Of a stretch of 64,000 bases of DNA, positions 355 through 7,640 are shown piece after piece. Position 1 is the stretch's first letter. Each line of letters begins with the position of its first letter. Location: NCBI GenBank assembly GCA_012798695.1, contig JAAZMR010000076.1, forward strand, positions 1-64,000, read 5' to 3'. The stretch is from Bacillota bacterium (GTDB lineage Bacteria > Bacillota > Limnochordia > DTU087). The notes under the pieces were generated by a model, which worked only from the letters and a program-made list of their open reading frames with translations, made no database searches and had not been told where the DNA came from. Made by a program: the position numbers and the translations under genes.

Positions 355-843
355 TCAACTGACCGACATGCTGCAAATAGCCATGATTTTGTAAACTAAC
401 TGGCCAGCCGGCACTTCCACCTTTACGATATCACCGGCCTTGCGGCCTAGAATTGCCTGAGCAACAGGAGAGCGGTGGGAAATGCGGCTGGCACCAGGAT
501 CAGCTTCTGCCGACCCCACAATCATAAATTCCATTTCTTCCCCAGTAGCAATATCATATAACCGCACTCGATGACCTACCCGGACCTGGTCTGTGGTCAT
601 ATTCCTGCCATCAATTACCTGAGCATTCCTCAAGAGATTCTCCAGAGCTTGGATACGACTCTCGATGAAAGCTAGCTCCATCTTGGATATTTCGTAGTCA
701 GGGTTCCCCCATGTACCTCCTGCACATAAAGCATCCCTCATGACCATGGCTACTTCCTTGCGTCTGACTGTCTTGAGATGGGCTAGTTCTGCCTCCAGTT
801 TACGCAACCCTGCCAAAGTGAGGAAGACTTCTTTTTCTGCCAT
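355..843 (-). CDS. GreA-like transcription factor lacking the catalytic acids
   Basis: The 162-residue protein has the GreA/GreB layout: an N-terminal coiled coil (about 1-75) and a C-terminal FKBP-like domain (about 80-160). It contains landmarks such as NAQVID after the coiled coil and SPVAQAILGRKAGD in the C-terminal domain. GreA enters the RNA polymerase secondary channel and stimulates transcript cleavage through two acids at the coiled-coil tip (D41 and E44 in E. coli). Here the tip reads GGTWGNPDYE, and both aligned acids are glycine. It may therefore bind polymerase without stimulating cleavage, which is inference. The ATG at 843 has AAGGAG 12 bases upstream. An in-frame TTG at 855 abuts that site and is unlikely. 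Confidence 0.85.
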   Translation of the reverse strand: MAEKEVFLTLAGLRKLEAELAHLKTVRRKEVAMVMRDALCAGGTWGNPDYEISKMELAFIESRIQALENLLRNAQVIDGRNMTTDQVRVGHRVRLYDIATGEEMEFMIVGSAEADPGASRISHRSPVAQAILGRKAGDIVKVEVPAGQLVYKIMAICSMSVS

Positions 844-998
844 CGGGAATCTCAACTCCTTGCCCTACTGCTTGCTAGCAGTATATTCATCAATCTCCAC
901 CGACTTGCTGGAGAAACCTTCCACGGTCATGCCCTGGGATAAACGTCAAGAGATGTGCTCATCCTACTGATAAGCGTGGTTGAAGGAGGATGGTCTAA

Positions 999-1871
999 TT
1001 GCGCAGTCTATGGAATGGCAGCATCAGCTTTGGTTTGGTAAATATACCTGTCAAGCTCTATGCAGGTACATCCAGCAATGATATTAAGTTCAACTATCTC
1101 CACAGCCTTTGTCATACACCCATCAAATACCAAAAAACGTGTCCCCACTGTGCCAAAGAAGTCACTGAAGATGAAATCGTAAAGGGTTATGAATTTCAGA
1201 AAGGCCAGTATGTTGTCATGGAAGAAACTGATTTTGAGGCCATAGTTCCGGAGAAAACCCGCTCTATCGATATTCTCGACTTTGTTCAATTGGCTAAGAT
1301 CGACCCAGTGTATTTCCAGCGAACTTACTACCTAGAACCTGGGGAAACCGGAGCCAAAGCCTATCATCTACTTAAAAAAGCTATGCAGGAAAAGCAGCAG
1401 ATAGCGATTGCCAAGATAGTTATCCGATCTCGTGAGAATTTAGCAGCTCTACGTGTCTACGGACGGGGATTAGCCTTAGAGACAATGTACTACCCAGATG
1501 AGATTCGTTCCATTGAACAACTAGGGCAGATAACTCAAGAGCCTGACATCAACGAACGGGAGTTAGCAATGGCTATGCTGCTCATTGATAACCTTACAGC
1601 GGAGTTTACCCCAGGCAAATACTTTGATGAGTATCAAGACATGCTGGCTAATGTCATTGAGCAGAAAATCGCCGGCCAAGAAGTCACCCCGGTTGTGGCA
1701 CCCCCCGCGGCCGGTAAGGTCATTGATCTGATGGCTGCCTTAGAAGCAAGTGTCCAAGCCACAAAATCGAGAGAAGGGCAGGCTGATCAAATGCCCACCG
1801 GTGAGAACACTACACGGCTTACGGCTAGACGCAAAGGGCACCCAATCAAAGAGTCTGAGGAAACCGGCTAG
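999..1871 (+). CDS. ku: Ku homodimer, DNA end-binding protein of bacterial NHEJ
   Basis: Bacterial Ku forms a ring that binds DNA double-strand ends and recruits LigD. The 290-residue product begins MRSLWNGSISFGLVNIPVKL, the hallmark Ku N-terminus, and carries the Ku core to about residue 240. A basic, Lys/Arg-rich tail follows, as is usual for LigD recruitment. The start is TTG at 999, chosen because GAAGGAGGA lies 8 bases upstream and the family motif begins immediately. It heads a gene run with the ligase (1-bp overlap), the polymerase and two SASP genes, which fits DNA-end repair in spores. It is divergent from the GreA-like gene. Confidence 0.96.
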   Translation: MRSLWNGSISFGLVNIPVKLYAGTSSNDIKFNYLHSLCHTPIKYQKTCPHCAKEVTEDEIVKGYEFQKGQYVVMEETDFEAIVPEKTRSIDILDFVQLAKIDPVYFQRTYYLEPGETGAKAYHLLKKAMQEKQQIAIAKIVIRSRENLAALRVYGRGLALETMYYPDEIRSIEQLGQITQEPDINERELAMAMLLIDNLTAEFTPGKYFDEYQDMLANVIEQKIAGQEVTPVVAPPAAGKVIDLMAALEASVQATKSREGQADQMPTGENTTRLTARRKGHPIKESEETG

Positions 1872-2836
1872 TGGCAGCATCACTCCCCCCTAATCTAAGA
1901 CCTATGTTGGCCTTGACAGCAGATCCCTTTGATTCCGATATGTTTCTCTTTGAGCCCAAATGGGATGGATTTCGCTGCCTGGCCTATGTAGAGAAGAACA
2001 TGACCAAACTGCAAAGCCGCAATGGTAACGATCTTACCCCTCACTTTCCTGAACTCTCTGCTCTACACCGGGAGATTGCGATAACACCGGCGATTATCGA
2101 CGGGGAAATCATTGCTTTTCACGGAGGTCGGGAGCTTTTCCATCCACTCTTAACAAGGATACGAGCTGAACCAAGAGCTAATATGCGCCCCGTAGATGTA
2201 TCGATACTTTTCGTTGCGTTTGACCTTTTGTATAGTCGAGGTAGGTCTATCCTCCATATCCCCCTACAAGAGCGCAAGGTACTACTGAGCGAGTCGGTGG
2301 CCGGCAATGAATACCTTGTGGTGAATGGCTATGTACATCAATCTGGGGTAGCACTCTTCCAGGCAGCTGTAGCCCAAGGCAGAGAAGGCATCATGGCCAA
2401 AAGATTGGGCAGTCCGTATCTACCCGGAAAGCGGACGCGGCTGTGGCTCAAGATCAAACCCCTGAAAACGGTAGAGGCAGTAGTGATCGGATATGTTCCT
2501 AAGACGAAGAACACCTTTGCTTCTTTGGCCTTAGGACAATACCTAGGCAAAAACCAGCTGTTAGTCTATGTTGGCAATGTAGGAACTGGCTTCACAGAAG
2601 CCCAGATGGGCGAGATCTTGGCAGGCCTCACCCCACTGCCACCCAATGAGAAGCCTGTGGTGCAAGAACTTCCCCATGACCATTCATCGATCATTTGGGT
2701 AAGACCGGAGATAGTTGTTGAAATTGGCTACCTGGAATACACCCCCAGCGGGAATCTGCGACATCCTACATATCAGAGAAGGCGGGAGGATATCGACCCA
2801 AAGCAATGTATCTTTCCAGATACTGATCAACCATGA
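1871..2836 (+). CDS. ligD: ATP-dependent DNA ligase, stand-alone LigD ligase domain
   Basis: This 321-residue protein is the ligase module of NHEJ ligase D. It has the nucleotidyl-transferase motif EPKWDGFR with nucleophile Lys30, then DGEIIAF, EGIMAKR and WLKIKP (motifs III-V). A C-terminal OB fold runs from about 215 to 315. It seals breaks held by Ku. The GTG start at 1871 overlaps the last base of the ku stop codon, so translation is probably coupled. In many bacteria ligase, polymerase and phosphoesterase are one LigD chain. Here the ligase and polymerase are separate proteins, and no phosphoesterase gene is visible. Confidence 0.94.
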   Translation: MAASLPPNLRPMLALTADPFDSDMFLFEPKWDGFRCLAYVEKNMTKLQSRNGNDLTPHFPELSALHREIAITPAIIDGEIIAFHGGRELFHPLLTRIRAEPRANMRPVDVSILFVAFDLLYSRGRSILHIPLQERKVLLSESVAGNEYLVVNGYVHQSGVALFQAAVAQGREGIMAKRLGSPYLPGKRTRLWLKIKPLKTVEAVVIGYVPKTKNTFASLALGQYLGKNQLLVYVGNVGTGFTEAQMGEILAGLTPLPPNEKPVVQELPHDHSSIIWVRPEIVVEIGYLEYTPSGNLRHPTYQRRREDIDPKQCIFPDTDQP

Positions 2837-2852
2837 AGGCGAGGAGAATAGC

Positions 2853-3770
2853 ATGGAGCAGCAGCAAACAGTACTAGTAGATGGGCACGAGATCGTGATT
2901 ACCAACTGGAATAGAGTGCTCTGGCCGGAGCCGGGGTTCACCAAAGGGGATCTCATCAACTACTATAGCCTGGCAGCCCCCTACCTGCTTGCTCATTTGC
3001 GAGACCGTCCACTCACAGTAACCCGGTACCCAAGAGGCATTCAGAATCCATCATTCTACCAAAAAAACTGTCCTCAATACGCACCTGGCTTCATAGAGAC
3101 AATCCCCGTGGTTGGTGATCAGCCCCACAAGACAATAAACTATATCTTGGTGCAGAACAGACCAACTCTGGTCTGGTTGGCCAACCAGGCCTGCATCGAA
3201 CTACACCCTTGGCTGTCTTTGCATACTCGCCCCCAGTACCCCGATTGGCTGGTGTTTGATCTAGACCCGGCAGAAGGTTGCGATTTTGATGATGCGCGGG
3301 AAATTGCCTTTCTGGTCAAAAAGGCCCTAGACGAGCTAGGGTTGCTCTGCTACCCCAAGCTTTCGGGGGTAACGGGCATTCACATTTATGTACCAATAGA
3401 GGCGAAATATACTTATCAGATTACCAGTGGGTTTGTCGGCAGCATCGGCAAGATCCTGGAATCGGTCTACCCATCCAAAGTCACTACAGAAAGGTTAATC
3501 AAACACCGTACCGGCCGCGTCTATGTTGACCACCTCCAAAACCTCTTAGGCAAGACACTTGCCGCTCCTTACAGCCCTCGTCCCCATCCGAAAGCCACCA
3601 TCTCGACACCAGTTACCTGGCCAGAGCTGGAGGGGGTTTATCCTGATCAGTTCCACTTGGGCAGCATTTTGGATCGTTTGCGCAAGACACCAGACCTTTT
3701 CGCACCGGTCCTTGGACCAGGGCAATCACTTGATCTAGCACTGAGAGATATCGGTATCACTGTCACTTGA
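2853..3770 (+). CDS. ligD: LigD-type DNA polymerase/primase (PolDom) of NHEJ
   Basis: The 305-residue protein matches the archaeo-eukaryotic-primase-like polymerase domain of LigD, which fills gaps and adds nucleotides, often ribonucleotides, at broken ends. It carries the metal-binding pair in WLVFDLDP (Asp136, Asp138), the SGVTGIHIYVP nucleotide-binding stretch, and VYVDHLQN with the third catalytic aspartate. The ATG at 2853 follows GAGGAG by 6 bases. The open frame extends upstream into the ligase gene, but that part has no ribosome site. It lies 16 bases after the ligase stop, as the third gene of the ku operon. Confidence 0.93.
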   Translation: MEQQQTVLVDGHEIVITNWNRVLWPEPGFTKGDLINYYSLAAPYLLAHLRDRPLTVTRYPRGIQNPSFYQKNCPQYAPGFIETIPVVGDQPHKTINYILVQNRPTLVWLANQACIELHPWLSLHTRPQYPDWLVFDLDPAEGCDFDDAREIAFLVKKALDELGLLCYPKLSGVTGIHIYVPIEAKYTYQITSGFVGSIGKILESVYPSKVTTERLIKHRTGRVYVDHLQNLLGKTLAAPYSPRPHPKATISTPVTWPELEGVYPDQFHLGSILDRLRKTPDLFAPVLGPGQSLDLALRDIGITVT

Positions 3771-3849
3771 AGCCACAATCTGTGTTTCCCGACAATTGGC
3801 AGCATGCTCCTCACGCTCTTTGGTCAAACTAGGCGTGGAGGTGACTCAT

Positions 3850-4041
3850 GTGGCTAATCGGGGCAAAGTAGCCTCCGAACAGCTAAAAATGGAGGCAGCA
3901 GAGGAAGTCGGGTTTGCCGACAAACTGAGGGAAAGCGGTTGGGATAATGTGACTACAAAGGAAATCGGTTTGATGGTCCGAGAGATGATTCGACGCGGAG
4001 AAAACACCCTTCTGCAACAACGGCGCAAGAATCAGACTTGA
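3850..4041 (+). CDS. alpha/beta-type small acid-soluble spore protein (SASP) 1
   Basis: The 63-residue protein carries the two SASP signatures: LKMEAAEEVGF, containing the germination-protease region E-A-A, and TTKEIGLMVREMI in the C-terminal DNA-binding helix. Alpha/beta SASPs coat spore DNA and protect it from UV and heat. The in-frame GTG at 3850 was chosen because GGAGGTG lies 6 bases upstream. A TTG at 3796 would add 18 residues outside the family pattern. Its place directly after ku-ligD suggests shared forespore expression, although no convincing sigma-G promoter could be fixed. Confidence 0.85.
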   Translation: MANRGKVASEQLKMEAAEEVGFADKLRESGWDNVTTKEIGLMVREMIRRGENTLLQQRRKNQT

Positions 4042-4163
4042 TGAGCTCTGCTGATAATCTAGGGATAAACCTCCCCGGTCAGTGGTATCCTAGAAACGGG
4101 CTTCGTATTCGGGCTCCTTTCCTACATATCCCTTTTCTTAGGGATATGAAAAGGAGGTACTCC

Positions 4164-4391
4164 ATGGCTGAGCGCTCACGGAAAACCATAGTCCCTCGAG
4201 CAGAATCGGCCCTGGACGAGGTCAAGTACGAAGTCGCTAATGAACTAGGTCTCCTGGAGAAGATCAAATCCCAAGGTTGGGGTGAGATGACTACACGGGA
4301 AGTAGGTAGAGTAGGCGGACAGATGGTCCGCAGACTGATTCACGCTGCTGAGGAATCCCTTGTCCAAGAAAACAAGACCAATAAGGGCTAA
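4164..4391 (+). CDS. alpha/beta-type small acid-soluble spore protein (SASP) 2
   Basis: The 75-residue paralogue of the preceding SASP has VKYEVANELGL around the expected GPR protease site and TTREVGRVGGQMVRRLI in the DNA-binding helix. The ATG at 4164 has AAGGAGG 6 bases upstream. A longer frame from 4038 has no ribosome site. A 9-bp hairpin (4125-4148) sits just before the ribosome-binding site and may stabilise the mRNA. It is the last gene of the ku-ligD-SASP run. Confidence 0.87.
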   Translation: MAERSRKTIVPRAESALDEVKYEVANELGLLEKIKSQGWGEMTTREVGRVGGQMVRRLIHAAEESLVQENKTNKG

Positions 4392-4497: not shown

Positions 4498-6276
4498 TTA
4501 GGCTTCTGCTTTGGGCAGCACAAAACCAAAGGTCGCCCCTTCGTTGGGCTTGCTAGTAGCGAAAACTTCCCCCCCATGGTTCTCAATGATTCCCCGGGCT
4601 ATAGAGAGGCCGAGCCCAGTTCCTTCTTTACCTTTTTCACGAGCTTTGTCGACTTTGTAGAAACGATCCCAGACATAAGGGAGCTGCTCTGGATCGATAC
4701 CCCTACCTGTATCCTCTACTTTGACTATTATCCGATTACCAGTGGCTCCAACAGAGATGGTCACGATCCCACCGCCCTCAGTATGTCGCAAGGCGTTATC
4801 AACGAAATTGGTCAGCACCTGCTGTAATCGGTCACTATCACCCCACAACAGCAGCTTTTCCTTTTCTCCTGGGGATAATTGGCAAGTCAGTTTTATATTC
4901 TTCTTGGCGGCCTGGGGTTCGAAAACATTCTGTACTCGATAAACCAGGTCTCGAATATCCAGCAAATCGTATGTGATAGACATGCTCCCCGACTCCAGTT
5001 TGGCTAAATCCAGAATATCATCAATCAGCCGGTTAAGGCGCAATGCTTCCTCCCGCACAATGTTCAGATAACGATGGCTCGTCTGCCGATCATCTACGGT
5101 GCCATCTAGCAAGGGTTCTACGAATCCTCGAATTGAAGTAAGCGGTGTTCTTAGTTCATGAGTAACATTGGCGAGAAAGTCCCTGCGCATGTTCTCGAGG
5201 CGCCTAGCTTCACTTACATCCTGTAAGAGAATAACACTGCCTACCCACTCATTGCCTCGTCGAATCGGGCTGCCATAGGCCCGCAGCACTACCAAAGGAT
5301 ATGGCGATATGTCTAGTGCTTCCACTCGCCCTGTTTCACTGACACGATGCAGCAGGTCAAGTAGGGGCACCGGCAGATCATCCATTGTCAACTTATCTAA
5401 CGGAATGTGGCCTACCCGCAACAGCTCTCCGGCCTGTGGATTGATCCAGAGAAGATTCTTGTCGTTATCAGCAGCGATGACCCCTTCATCGATACCAGTT
5501 ACGATACTCTGAAATTTGTCCCTTTCTTCCTGTAAATCACCGAGACTTCTTTCCAGTTTCTCCGCTAGGAGGTTAATCGCTTGGCCTAGTTCACCGACTT
5601 CATCCTCTGTTTCAATGGGTACCCGCCGATCAAAGACTCCTTGAGTCATCTCTTGAGCTAGACTAGTCATTGCCCTCAGCGGCCCGGTGATGCCCCGGGA
5701 CAGCCCTACCCCAACCAGATTGGACACTAGAAGCGCAAAAGCCGATGCCGCAAAGACCAATCGCCGGACATGAGCTAGGGTTTGTTCCACCGCCGATACC
5801 GGTGTATTCATGAACAGAGCACCTAATACTTGGTCTCCTACTTTTACCGGTACCGCCACGTTAATCATGGGCATATTAAAACGTCCTGTACGCCCTCTGC
5901 GAGTTACTACGGTCCCTTGCATAACCTCATTGAACTCATCTGCCTCCAAACGTATGCCTTCCCATTCAACAGACCCCTTAGATGCAGCTACAATTAGACC
6001 AGAGCGATCGACTAACCAGACTTGTGCCTCCAGGAATTCCCCCATGTTTTCCAGCACAACTCTGGCTTGGTAGTTCAAAGGGCGTCCCTGTGCTACATCT
6101 TTGACGATCCCGGCCACAGCTTGTCCCCGAGATATAAGGAGGCTCTCCTGTTCTGTAAAGAGATAATCTGATAGTAAACGGGAAAACAACACACCCAGTA
6201 CTGCTAGGCTGAGCACGGTAACAGTGACGTACGAGACAACCAGCTTTGATCTAATGCTGCGTTTTAGTGACACCAC
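4498..6276 (-). CDS. membrane sensor histidine kinase (WalK/PhoR class)
   Basis: This 592-residue kinase has two transmembrane segments (about 12-35 and 170-195) flanking an extracytoplasmic sensor domain. A HAMP linker (about 195-245) and a PAS domain (about 250-355) follow. The HisKA phosphoacceptor helix is FLANVTHELRTPLTS (His373). The ATPase domain carries an N box (NFVDNALRHT), DTGRGI and GTGLGLSI. It should phosphorylate the response regulator encoded just upstream, whose 3' end overlaps its GTG start by 26 bases. The architecture is that of WalK/PhoR/ResE kinases, but the signal cannot be read from the sequence. Confidence 0.92.
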   Translation of the reverse strand: MVSLKRSIRSKLVVSYVTVTVLSLAVLGVLFSRLLSDYLFTEQESLLISRGQAVAGIVKDVAQGRPLNYQARVVLENMGEFLEAQVWLVDRSGLIVAASKGSVEWEGIRLEADEFNEVMQGTVVTRRGRTGRFNMPMINVAVPVKVGDQVLGALFMNTPVSAVEQTLAHVRRLVFAASAFALLVSNLVGVGLSRGITGPLRAMTSLAQEMTQGVFDRRVPIETEDEVGELGQAINLLAEKLERSLGDLQEERDKFQSIVTGIDEGVIAADNDKNLLWINPQAGELLRVGHIPLDKLTMDDLPVPLLDLLHRVSETGRVEALDISPYPLVVLRAYGSPIRRGNEWVGSVILLQDVSEARRLENMRRDFLANVTHELRTPLTSIRGFVEPLLDGTVDDRQTSHRYLNIVREEALRLNRLIDDILDLAKLESGSMSITYDLLDIRDLVYRVQNVFEPQAAKKNIKLTCQLSPGEKEKLLLWGDSDRLQQVLTNFVDNALRHTEGGGIVTISVGATGNRIIVKVEDTGRGIDPEQLPYVWDRFYKVDKAREKGKEGTGLGLSIARGIIENHGGEVFATSKPNEGATFGFVLPKAEA

Positions 6277-6973
6277 CCTCGGCCCCCTGCTGCTCGTCGA
6301 ATTTGTATCCTACACCCCAGACTGTGGCAATACTCCAGGACTTTGGCTCGGCTGACGCCAGCTTCTGCCGCAAACGCTTGATATGCGCATCTACTGTACG
6401 ACCATCACCGACAAAGTCATACCCCCATACCTGTGATAGGATTTGCTCCCTTGTATAGGCCCATCCGGGCTTCTCCGCCAGAAAAACCAAAAGATCGAAT
6501 TCTTTGGGGGTAAGGGCCACCAACTGACCATCCAAGAGCACCTCATGACGAGCTACATCGATGTGCAAACCGGGAAAATCAATAACCTTCGCCTTATCCT
6601 CTGCCCGACTCACTCGTCGCAAAATCGCCTTTACCCTGGCCACCACTTCTACTGGGTTAAATGGTTTTACAACATAATCATCGGCACCTAGCTCCAAACC
6701 AAGTATGCGGTCATAATCCTCACCTTTGGCCGTCAACATGATGATAGGAACAAAGCTCTCCTCCCTGACTGCCCGACAGACCTCCCATCCATCGAGTTTG
6801 GGCATCATCACATCTAAAATCAGAAGATCCGGTTTGGCTTCCCGGGTCTGTCTGAGCGCCTCTGCCCCATTCAGGGCCGTCAGTACTTCATAGCCCTCTT
6901 TGACCAGATAGAGAGATAGCAGTTCCAGTACGTTAGGATCATCATCCGCGATCAGAACCTGACCTTTCGCCAC
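6251..6973 (-). CDS. OmpR/PhoB-family response regulator
   Basis: The N-terminal receiver domain has VLIADDD acidic residues and the phosphoacceptor Asp54 in LILDVMMPK. The C-terminal winged helix ends in WGYDFVGDGRTVDAHIKRLRQKL, recognisable as an OmpR-type DNA-binding domain. The GTG at 6973 (240 residues) was chosen because AAGGGGAG lies about 9 bases upstream and the protein then begins directly at the receiver strand. In-frame ATG codons at 6994 and 7021 would add 7 or 16 residues. It pairs with the overlapping histidine kinase. The regulon is unknown. Confidence 0.92.
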   Translation of the reverse strand: MAKGQVLIADDDPNVLELLSLYLVKEGYEVLTALNGAEALRQTREAKPDLLILDVMMPKLDGWEVCRAVREESFVPIIMLTAKGEDYDRILGLELGADDYVVKPFNPVEVVARVKAILRRVSRAEDKAKVIDFPGLHIDVARHEVLLDGQLVALTPKEFDLLVFLAEKPGWAYTREQILSQVWGYDFVGDGRTVDAHIKRLRQKLASAEPKSWSIATVWGVGYKFDEQQGAEGGVTKTQH

Positions 6974-7038
6974 AGCCTTCCACTCCCCTTGCATCAGTCT
7001 TGTCGCGTTCAAGTATACCATGCAGCCGTAGGGACATC

Positions 7039-7064
7039 AAAAACCCGCCACGCGAATGGCGGGT
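7039..7064 (-). terminator. intrinsic terminator of spoVT
   Basis: On the minus strand an 8-bp GC-rich stem (ACCCGCCA with TGGCGGGT) and 6-base loop is followed by TTTTT. It lies about 30 bases after the spoVT stop and separates it from the two-component genes. Confidence 0.85.
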
Positions 7065-7091
7065 CAGTTGATGTAAGTTATTAGTAGCTTT

Positions 7092-7640
7092 CTAATCGAT
7101 GCCTACTTGTTTACTGAGGAAGCTAGCTGCCGTCTCGGCCACTTTTAGCTCAAAATCGCCTAGCTCTCGGTCAGTAGCCGCTAGAAGTACGGTCCCCAAT
7201 AGGTCACCGGTAGGGCTGATAATGGGAGCTATCACTAAGGACCGCAATTCATAGTCCTTGGGCCATTCCAGATAGGGCTCTTTCTGAAGCTGATCGAACT
7301 GAGCAATCAGCGATTTGCGTTCAACGGCGATTTTCTTCAGCGCACTACTGACCACACGCTCTTGCATGGCCTTGATACTCAAGCTGCTGGCAATCACCTG
7401 GTCCTTATCAGTAATAAGTGCCTGGCACTCAGTAGACTGTTCCAAAGCCTCTACATACCCTTCAGCTTCTGTCCGCAAGCTCCAAAGAGGTGAGAACTTC
7501 TTTAGAACAATCCCACCATTAGCCTCTGTGAAAATCTCAATAGCATCCCCTTCATCGATTCGCAGCTGTGTCCTTAGTTCTTTAGGTACTACCACTCGCC
7601 CAAGCTCATCTATTCTGCGCACGATGCCTGTTGCTTTCAT
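7092..7640 (-). CDS. spoVT: stage V sporulation protein T, AbrB-like regulator
   Basis: SpoVT is a forespore transcription regulator with an AbrB swapped-hairpin DNA-binding domain and a GAF-like C-terminal domain. The N-terminus MKATGIVRRIDELGRVVVPK is nearly invariant in SpoVT. The 182-residue length and C-terminal ending (AETAASFLSKQVGI) also fit. AGGAGG lies just before the ATG. It has its own terminator, so it is probably monocistronic. Confidence 0.95.
   Translation of the reverse strand: MKATGIVRRIDELGRVVVPKELRTQLRIDEGDAIEIFTEANGGIVLKKFSPLWSLRTEAEGYVEALEQSTECQALITDKDQVIASSLSIKAMQERVVSSALKKIAVERKSLIAQFDQLQKEPYLEWPKDYELRSLVIAPIISPTGDLLGTVLLAATDRELGDFELKVAETAASFLSKQVGID

Follow-up and report, generated by a model that had tools for sequence, protein, structure and literature searches.

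Why should a bacterium keep, directly beside its genes for NHEJ, a second Gre factor whose catalytic tip carries glycine at both acidic positions? The question is raised by a gene near the start of the window, by which we mean the whole stretch of 64,000 nucleotides of Bacillota DNA that was analyzed. The features considered are the following.

355–843, minus strand: Ku-linked Gre factor (GreA paralogue) of 162 aa (ORF, Pfam and AF2 model)
694–720, minus strand: tip codons G42-G43-T44-W45-G46-N47-P48-D49-Y50 (1grj alignment, pattern match)
882–908, minus strand: GCAAG-N15-GAATATA, a conserved promoter-like element preceding the Gre gene (intergenic alignment)
936–966, plus strand: conserved element GGATAA-N17-CATCCTA upstream of ku (intergenic alignment within f1, the family of the window genome)
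999–1871, plus strand: ku (TIGR02772, 1.4e-95)
1871–2836, plus strand: NHEJ ATP-dependent DNA ligase (TIGR02779, 2e-70)
2853–3770, plus strand: LigD-type primase-polymerase (PF21686, 1.3e-84), start taken as ATG 2853
3796–4041, plus strand: small acid-soluble spore protein (SASP; PF00269, 1.6e-6)
4038–4391, plus strand: SASP (PF00269, 5e-22)

The Gre Gene and Its Product

The Gre reading frame (843–355, minus strand) starts at ATG 843 behind an AGGAG-type ribosome-binding site; an alternative start at TTG 855 would add 4 residues. By its domains the product is a member of the Gre family, with both scores above the Pfam cut-offs (PF03449, GreA_GreB_N, 2.4e-16; PF01272, GreA_GreB C-terminal domain, 6.2e-24), and its NCBIfam label is GreA. 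The AlphaFold (AF2) model, with a mean pLDDT of 88, contains two long helices (residues 10–42 and 48–73) and matches E. coli GreA (1grj) at TM 0.86 and RNAP-bound Gfh1 at TM 0.81; the protein is thus modeled with a normal Gre fold. As the first-pass annotation of this locus had stated, the asparagine and tyrosine flanking the tip acids are kept (N47 and Y50, for N45 and Y48 of E. coli GreA) and the C-terminal domain is conserved. The latter retains S122 and S125, equivalent to S121 and S124 of E. coli, which we take to be the serines that bind RNAP.

The same annotation regarded the protein as a paralogue of GreA and proposed a search for a second, canonical greA. Such a gene was located on another contig of the genome (2.68 Mb, 130 contigs, 100% complete), where it is the only Gre gene besides that of the window; it has the tip GDITENAEYDD and is 50% identical to the window protein.

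The Catalytic Tip

In the gapless alignment to E. coli GreA (1grj), AREHGDLKENAEYH of the window protein stands opposite DALCAGGTWGNPDYE, with G43, W45 and G46 at the positions of D41, K43 and E44, respectively. G43 is encoded by GGT (717–715) and G46 by GGG (708–706), the E44G codon depending on the single consensus of a fragmented assembly (130 contigs). Both acids are therefore glycine, as first described, and the pair of tip acids that marks canonical GreA is missing. All 78 distinct canonical GreA tips compared carry D41 together with E or D at position 44, which argues that the loss in the window protein is not due to chance. Its D49 falls outside the positions equivalent to 41 and 44.

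According to published work on substitutions at D41 and E44 of GreA, the mutants are generally unable to stimulate cleavage but still bind RNAP, they inhibit elongation at high concentration, and the alleles raise RecBCD-dependent recombination (PMC3078854). In the mycobacterial factor MtbGre, the equivalent of D41 is essential (D43N is dead) and that of E44 dispensable (E46R is active), with Asn47 and Tyr50 named as the residues that hold the backtracked RNA (PMC3132773). The earlier statement that studied mutants deprived of both acids no longer cleave was right, and loss of D41 alone is reported to suffice (MtbGre D43N, PMC3132773). By comparison with these mutants, the window protein is very probably incapable of stimulating transcript cleavage.

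Linkage With NHEJ Genes

The window gene is divergent from ku, the two start positions (gre 843, ku 999) being separated by 155 bp. The NHEJ neighborhood, to which the first-pass annotation had drawn attention, proved to be real and meaningful. A Gre gene was found beside the ku-ligase-polymerase genes in 23 genomes, which represent 7 families; as a rule it is divergent from ku, with a gap of 140–230 bp. Within f1, the paralogue occurs in 9 of the 10 other genomes; in every Ku-bearing genome (10/10) it is divergent from ku at a distance of ~150 bp, and the only member without Ku lacks the paralogue too. The order past ku is NHEJ ligase, polymerase and then, in most genomes and where the contig permits, spore-protein genes. 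In one genome of the family (G003), the ku island and the Gre paralogue each occur twice.

A neighboring Gre gene was then looked for at approximately 138 additional ku loci from the phylum. Outside f1, Gre was found beside ku in three genomes of f3, four of f6, three of f40 and one each of f95, f72 and f103; ~27 of the 86 ku loci of the phylum sample were read 1.5 kb on each side only, so that remoter Gre genes there could escape notice. In f72 and f103, the gene of a Y-family DinB-type polymerase, on the strand of Gre, intervenes between Gre and ku; these dinB-type genes lie at 6167–7444 of locus L343 and 2190–3401 of locus L290, both on the minus strand. A degenerate pattern of the tip matched 10 of 398 genomes of the phylum and gave zero control matches; all 10 were beside ku, and the number is a lower bound because the pattern misses some members of the group (e.g., G007). 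The sequence-level relatives of the window protein were mostly canonical GreA, and a tip of this type occurred among them only in locus L005, which corresponds to G005.

Variation of the Tip

The tips of the other f1 paralogues read GGTWENPDYE, GGSWENPDYE, GGSWENPAYE, GCTWENPDYE and GGAWDNSDYE, with one GGTWENPDYR. All of them lack the first acid (D41), and at the second position E or D persists (codons GAA, GAG or GAC) except in the window; the double glycine is therefore confined to the window genome, and the loss of D41 is family-wide. The survey of relatives for a GGTWGN tip, proposed at the first pass, thus upheld one half of the original observation throughout f1 and showed the other half, the loss of E44, to be private to this genome. 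According to the published mutants it is D41 that cleavage cannot do without, and its clade-wide loss in f1 therefore outweighs the extra E44G of the window.

Across the 22 distinct tip-bearing Ku-linked proteins, the residues at positions 41 and 44 are D/E in 6, D/D in 3, D/G in 3, G/E in 7, and C/E, G/D and G/G in one each, the sole G/G being that of the window. All three D/G tips come from f40: loci L277, L286 and L294 have GDPWGNPEYE or GDAWGNPEYE, in which E44 is replaced by Gly and D41 is kept, as a mirror of f1. Clade members in f6, f72, f95 and f103 retain both acids, and the shared function of the clade therefore cannot be the loss of cleavage alone. What all 22 proteins have in common is tryptophan where E. 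coli GreA has K43 (W45 in the window), a residue that is found in none of the 78 canonical tips, where serine prevails. The C-terminal loop of most Ku-linked proteins reads IS(H/Y)(R/K/other)SPVA (ISHRSPVA in the window), in contrast to ISNESPVG of canonical Bacillota GreA.

In G003, the additional Gre (L115 2289–2741) is devoid of the tip and of the start of helix 2. It gives no GreA_GreB_N score but keeps the C-terminal domain, and its model has a shorter coil (helices 10–34 and 39–61), with pLDDT ~58 near the tip. This tip-deleted protein, EGILHSGGLLASLEQRI, is encoded in the second ku-ligase island of the genome (L115 1313–2741; G003:C9). On the simplest reading, the ancestor would have had both acids and the Trp, D41 would have been lost in f1, f40 and the window would each have lost E44 on its own, and the tip would have been deleted once. 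Erosion of the acids in the Ku-linked clade is, judging by these tips, a repeated event.

Phylogeny and Selection

In a tree with the tip columns masked, the 23 Ku-linked proteins were split from 40 canonical GreA by a branch with 100% bootstrap and 98% SH-aLRT support, a test of the split irrespective of the root position. The window protein sits on the Ku-linked side of this branch, apart from the canonical GreA. On sequence grounds, the Ku-linked Gre proteins form an ancient separate clade spanning 7 families. A search of the openly available full-text literature for GreA together with LigD or NHEJ returned no description of a Ku-linked Gre; within this scope, the branch is previously unremarked. 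Overall, the first-pass annotation was correct with regard to the paralogue, the very probable loss of cleavage and the NHEJ context, but missed the tip Trp, the Ku-linked clade, the tip-deleted member and the family-wide loss of D41 as against the private loss of E44.

The dN/dS of window-type Gre was 0.06–0.14 for the unsaturated pairs (the remaining pairs being saturated), i.e., 2–4 times the value obtained for canonical greA from these genomes (~0.03). The Ku-linked genes are under purifying selection, which is somewhat relaxed. A pseudogene reading of the window gene was rejected on the basis of dN/dS and synteny.

Upstream Elements

The element GCAAG-N15-GAATATA, which precedes the Gre ATG of the window by 39 bp, is kept upstream of Ku-linked Gre genes in f1, f3, f40 and f95 and, by its sequence, looks like a promoter. 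It has a single exact match in the 2.68-Mb genome; a scan of the genome gave 11 one-mismatch matches vs. 9 in the control, and no regulon emerged from it. A sigma factor could not be matched to this element: GAATATA is similar to the -10 of SigH-type promoters, but the -35 half misfits. The ku-side element reads GGATAA-N17-(C/T/A)ATCCTA across f1 and appears close to a forespore SigG promoter. In the ku promoter region of f1, AGGATAA and TTATCCTA form an inverted repeat ~17 bp apart.

Possible Role of the Ku-Linked Gre Factor

Based on these results, we propose that a cleavage-deficient Gre occupies the secondary channel of RNAP, excludes GreA and favors repair by Ku/LigD, probably around sporulation, a proposal to which we give about an even chance. 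Among the possible actions of the window protein, we regard competition with GreA as the most plausible; we infer this, the benefit to NHEJ and the timing, all three. The window protein belongs to a Gre clade that travels with the bacterial NHEJ genes, and it keeps the parts for docking on RNAP and for reaching into the channel (the full-length coiled coil, N47/Y50 and S122/S125); what has been given up is the metal-binding aspartate needed for cutting backtracked RNA and, in the window genome, also the glutamate. According to the proposal, it would most likely be produced when spores form or grow out, either along with Ku, ligase and polymerase or opposite to them. After entry into the secondary channel it would perform no cleavage but displace GreA, and RNAP would be left in a backtracked or idle state in which transcription is no obstacle to break repair.

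Several studies of GreA in repair are relevant here. According to PMC7527559, which cites Sivaramakrishnan 2017, GreA impairs the repair of double-strand breaks, an effect that depends on its antipause activity; this activity is absent from GreA D41A E44Y (PMC7527559). The help of DksA in the repair of phleomycin breaks was attributed to the exclusion of GreA, whereas with nalidixic-acid breaks its role was active and not GreA exclusion (PMC6488371). This link between GreA and repair comes from work on E. coli and its homologous recombination, rather than from NHEJ or from spore formers. As the window Gre is predicted to be cleavage-deficient and is encoded beside ku and ligD, and GreA impairs repair, it would be best read as a GreA-excluding factor. 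A point against a model built on cleavage loss comes from f40, which has lost E44 only, the equivalent MtbGre mutant still being able to cleave.

An inhibitor of the Gfh1 or Rv3788 kind would act differently, its entry into the channel directly blocking catalysis, beyond the exclusion of GreA. The fold is the same, the Gfh1 structures are close, both factors displace Gre from RNAP (PMC4598747), and the tip Trp could sterically obstruct the active site; nevertheless, we find this rather doubtful, because the nearest solved sequence to the window protein is GreA (7e-22), with Gfh1 weaker (1.3e-17), and because the inhibition of RNAP by Rv3788 depends on its two tip acids (PMC4598747), which the window protein has lost. 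For the latter reason, a strict Gfh1-like block of the channel, one of the roles envisaged at the first pass, is unsupported. The retention of both acids in several clade members would fit a factor that still stimulates cleavage, or uses an alternative chemistry involving W45, D49 and water, on RNAP stalled at breaks or lesions. The kept N47 and Y50, as holders of backtracked RNA, point the same way, and the association with dinB in f72 and f103 suggests lesion-stalled RNAP; however, MtbGre cannot dispense with its D41 equivalent (PMC3132773), the D41 mutants of E. coli fail, and one relative is without the entire tip, which makes this reading unlikely.

The variable tips, the deletion of one of them and the elevated dN/dS could also be those of a dispensable GreA copy that is losing its catalytic residues and was kept beside ku by chance. 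We consider this quite improbable, as purifying selection is still strong, co-occurrence with ku is strict in f1, the linkage extends over 7 families, Gre was duplicated along with the ku island and the upstream element is conserved. Very unlikely, finally, is a spore-specific transcription factor whose NHEJ link is merely shared expression in the forespore: SASP genes lie downstream of ligD in many loci and the element at ku is SigG-like, but the Gre-side element is unlike it, and the linkage is specifically to ku, with dinB in addition in two families.

Comparison With Known Factors

With E. coli GreA (1grj) and the canonical greA of its own genome, the window protein shares the two-domain fold, the length of the coil and the equivalents of N45/Y48 and S121/S124; it differs in the two glycines, the tip Trp, the separate clade and the ku linkage. 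Like Gfh1 of Thermus and Rv3788 of M. tuberculosis, it would be a non-cleaving Gre paralogue of the same fold alongside a true GreA, but these two keep acidic tips, and assignment of the window protein to Gfh1 was rejected for its missing acids at the 41/44 equivalents. We know of no ku linkage for either. The laboratory mutants D41A E44Y, D41N and E44K of E. coli GreA resemble it in their acid-free tip, with published RNAP binding without cleavage; the window protein, in contrast, is natural, conserved and accompanied by an intact second greA. Rnk, a competitor from the Gre family, has a coil that stops short of the active site, in which it resembles the tip-deleted protein of G003; the window protein has a full-length coil, the C-terminal domain of Rnk is turned, and the two are not close in sequence. 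Archaeal TFS4, a paralogue of a TFIIS-type cleavage factor that has turned into an RNAP inhibitor (PMC5715097), offers a parallel with an unrelated fold and no repair linkage.

Ku and LigD are commonly presented as the two proteins that make up bacterial NHEJ. A conserved RNAP factor inherited along with them would add a third component, one linked to transcription. It is possible, though we put this forward tentatively, that the Ku-linked Gre is a transcription-repair coupling factor of NHEJ that acts at breaks, where its Trp tip signals or clears RNAP, its role in the window lineage being purely GreA-excluding or structural. If so, several lineages within the phylum have had a protein of the RNAP secondary channel as part of their end-joining module. 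The Ku-linked Gre would in addition be a natural counterpart to the laboratory finding that the cleavage activity of GreA impedes break repair, and the series of tips within one clade (both acids, one, none, no tip) provides natural mutants for the activity of Gre in repair.

Other Observations on Related Loci

In G002 (97% complete, 300 contigs), only the Ku-linked Gre was matched, with the tip GGAWDNSDYE (L124 6253–6735; G002:C116:14252–14734); the lack of a canonical greA there may be an assembly gap. A Gre profile search of three Ku-positive genomes of family f7 (G016, G020 and G030) gave zero matches, and some relatives may thus be without Gre factors. The gene that follows Gre in L005 (6540–7793) and L115 (2866–4089) encodes a DUF438-hemerythrin-PAS protein, according to Pfam on the L115 copy; the corresponding position of the window is occupied by a tRNA-Val gene at the contig end.
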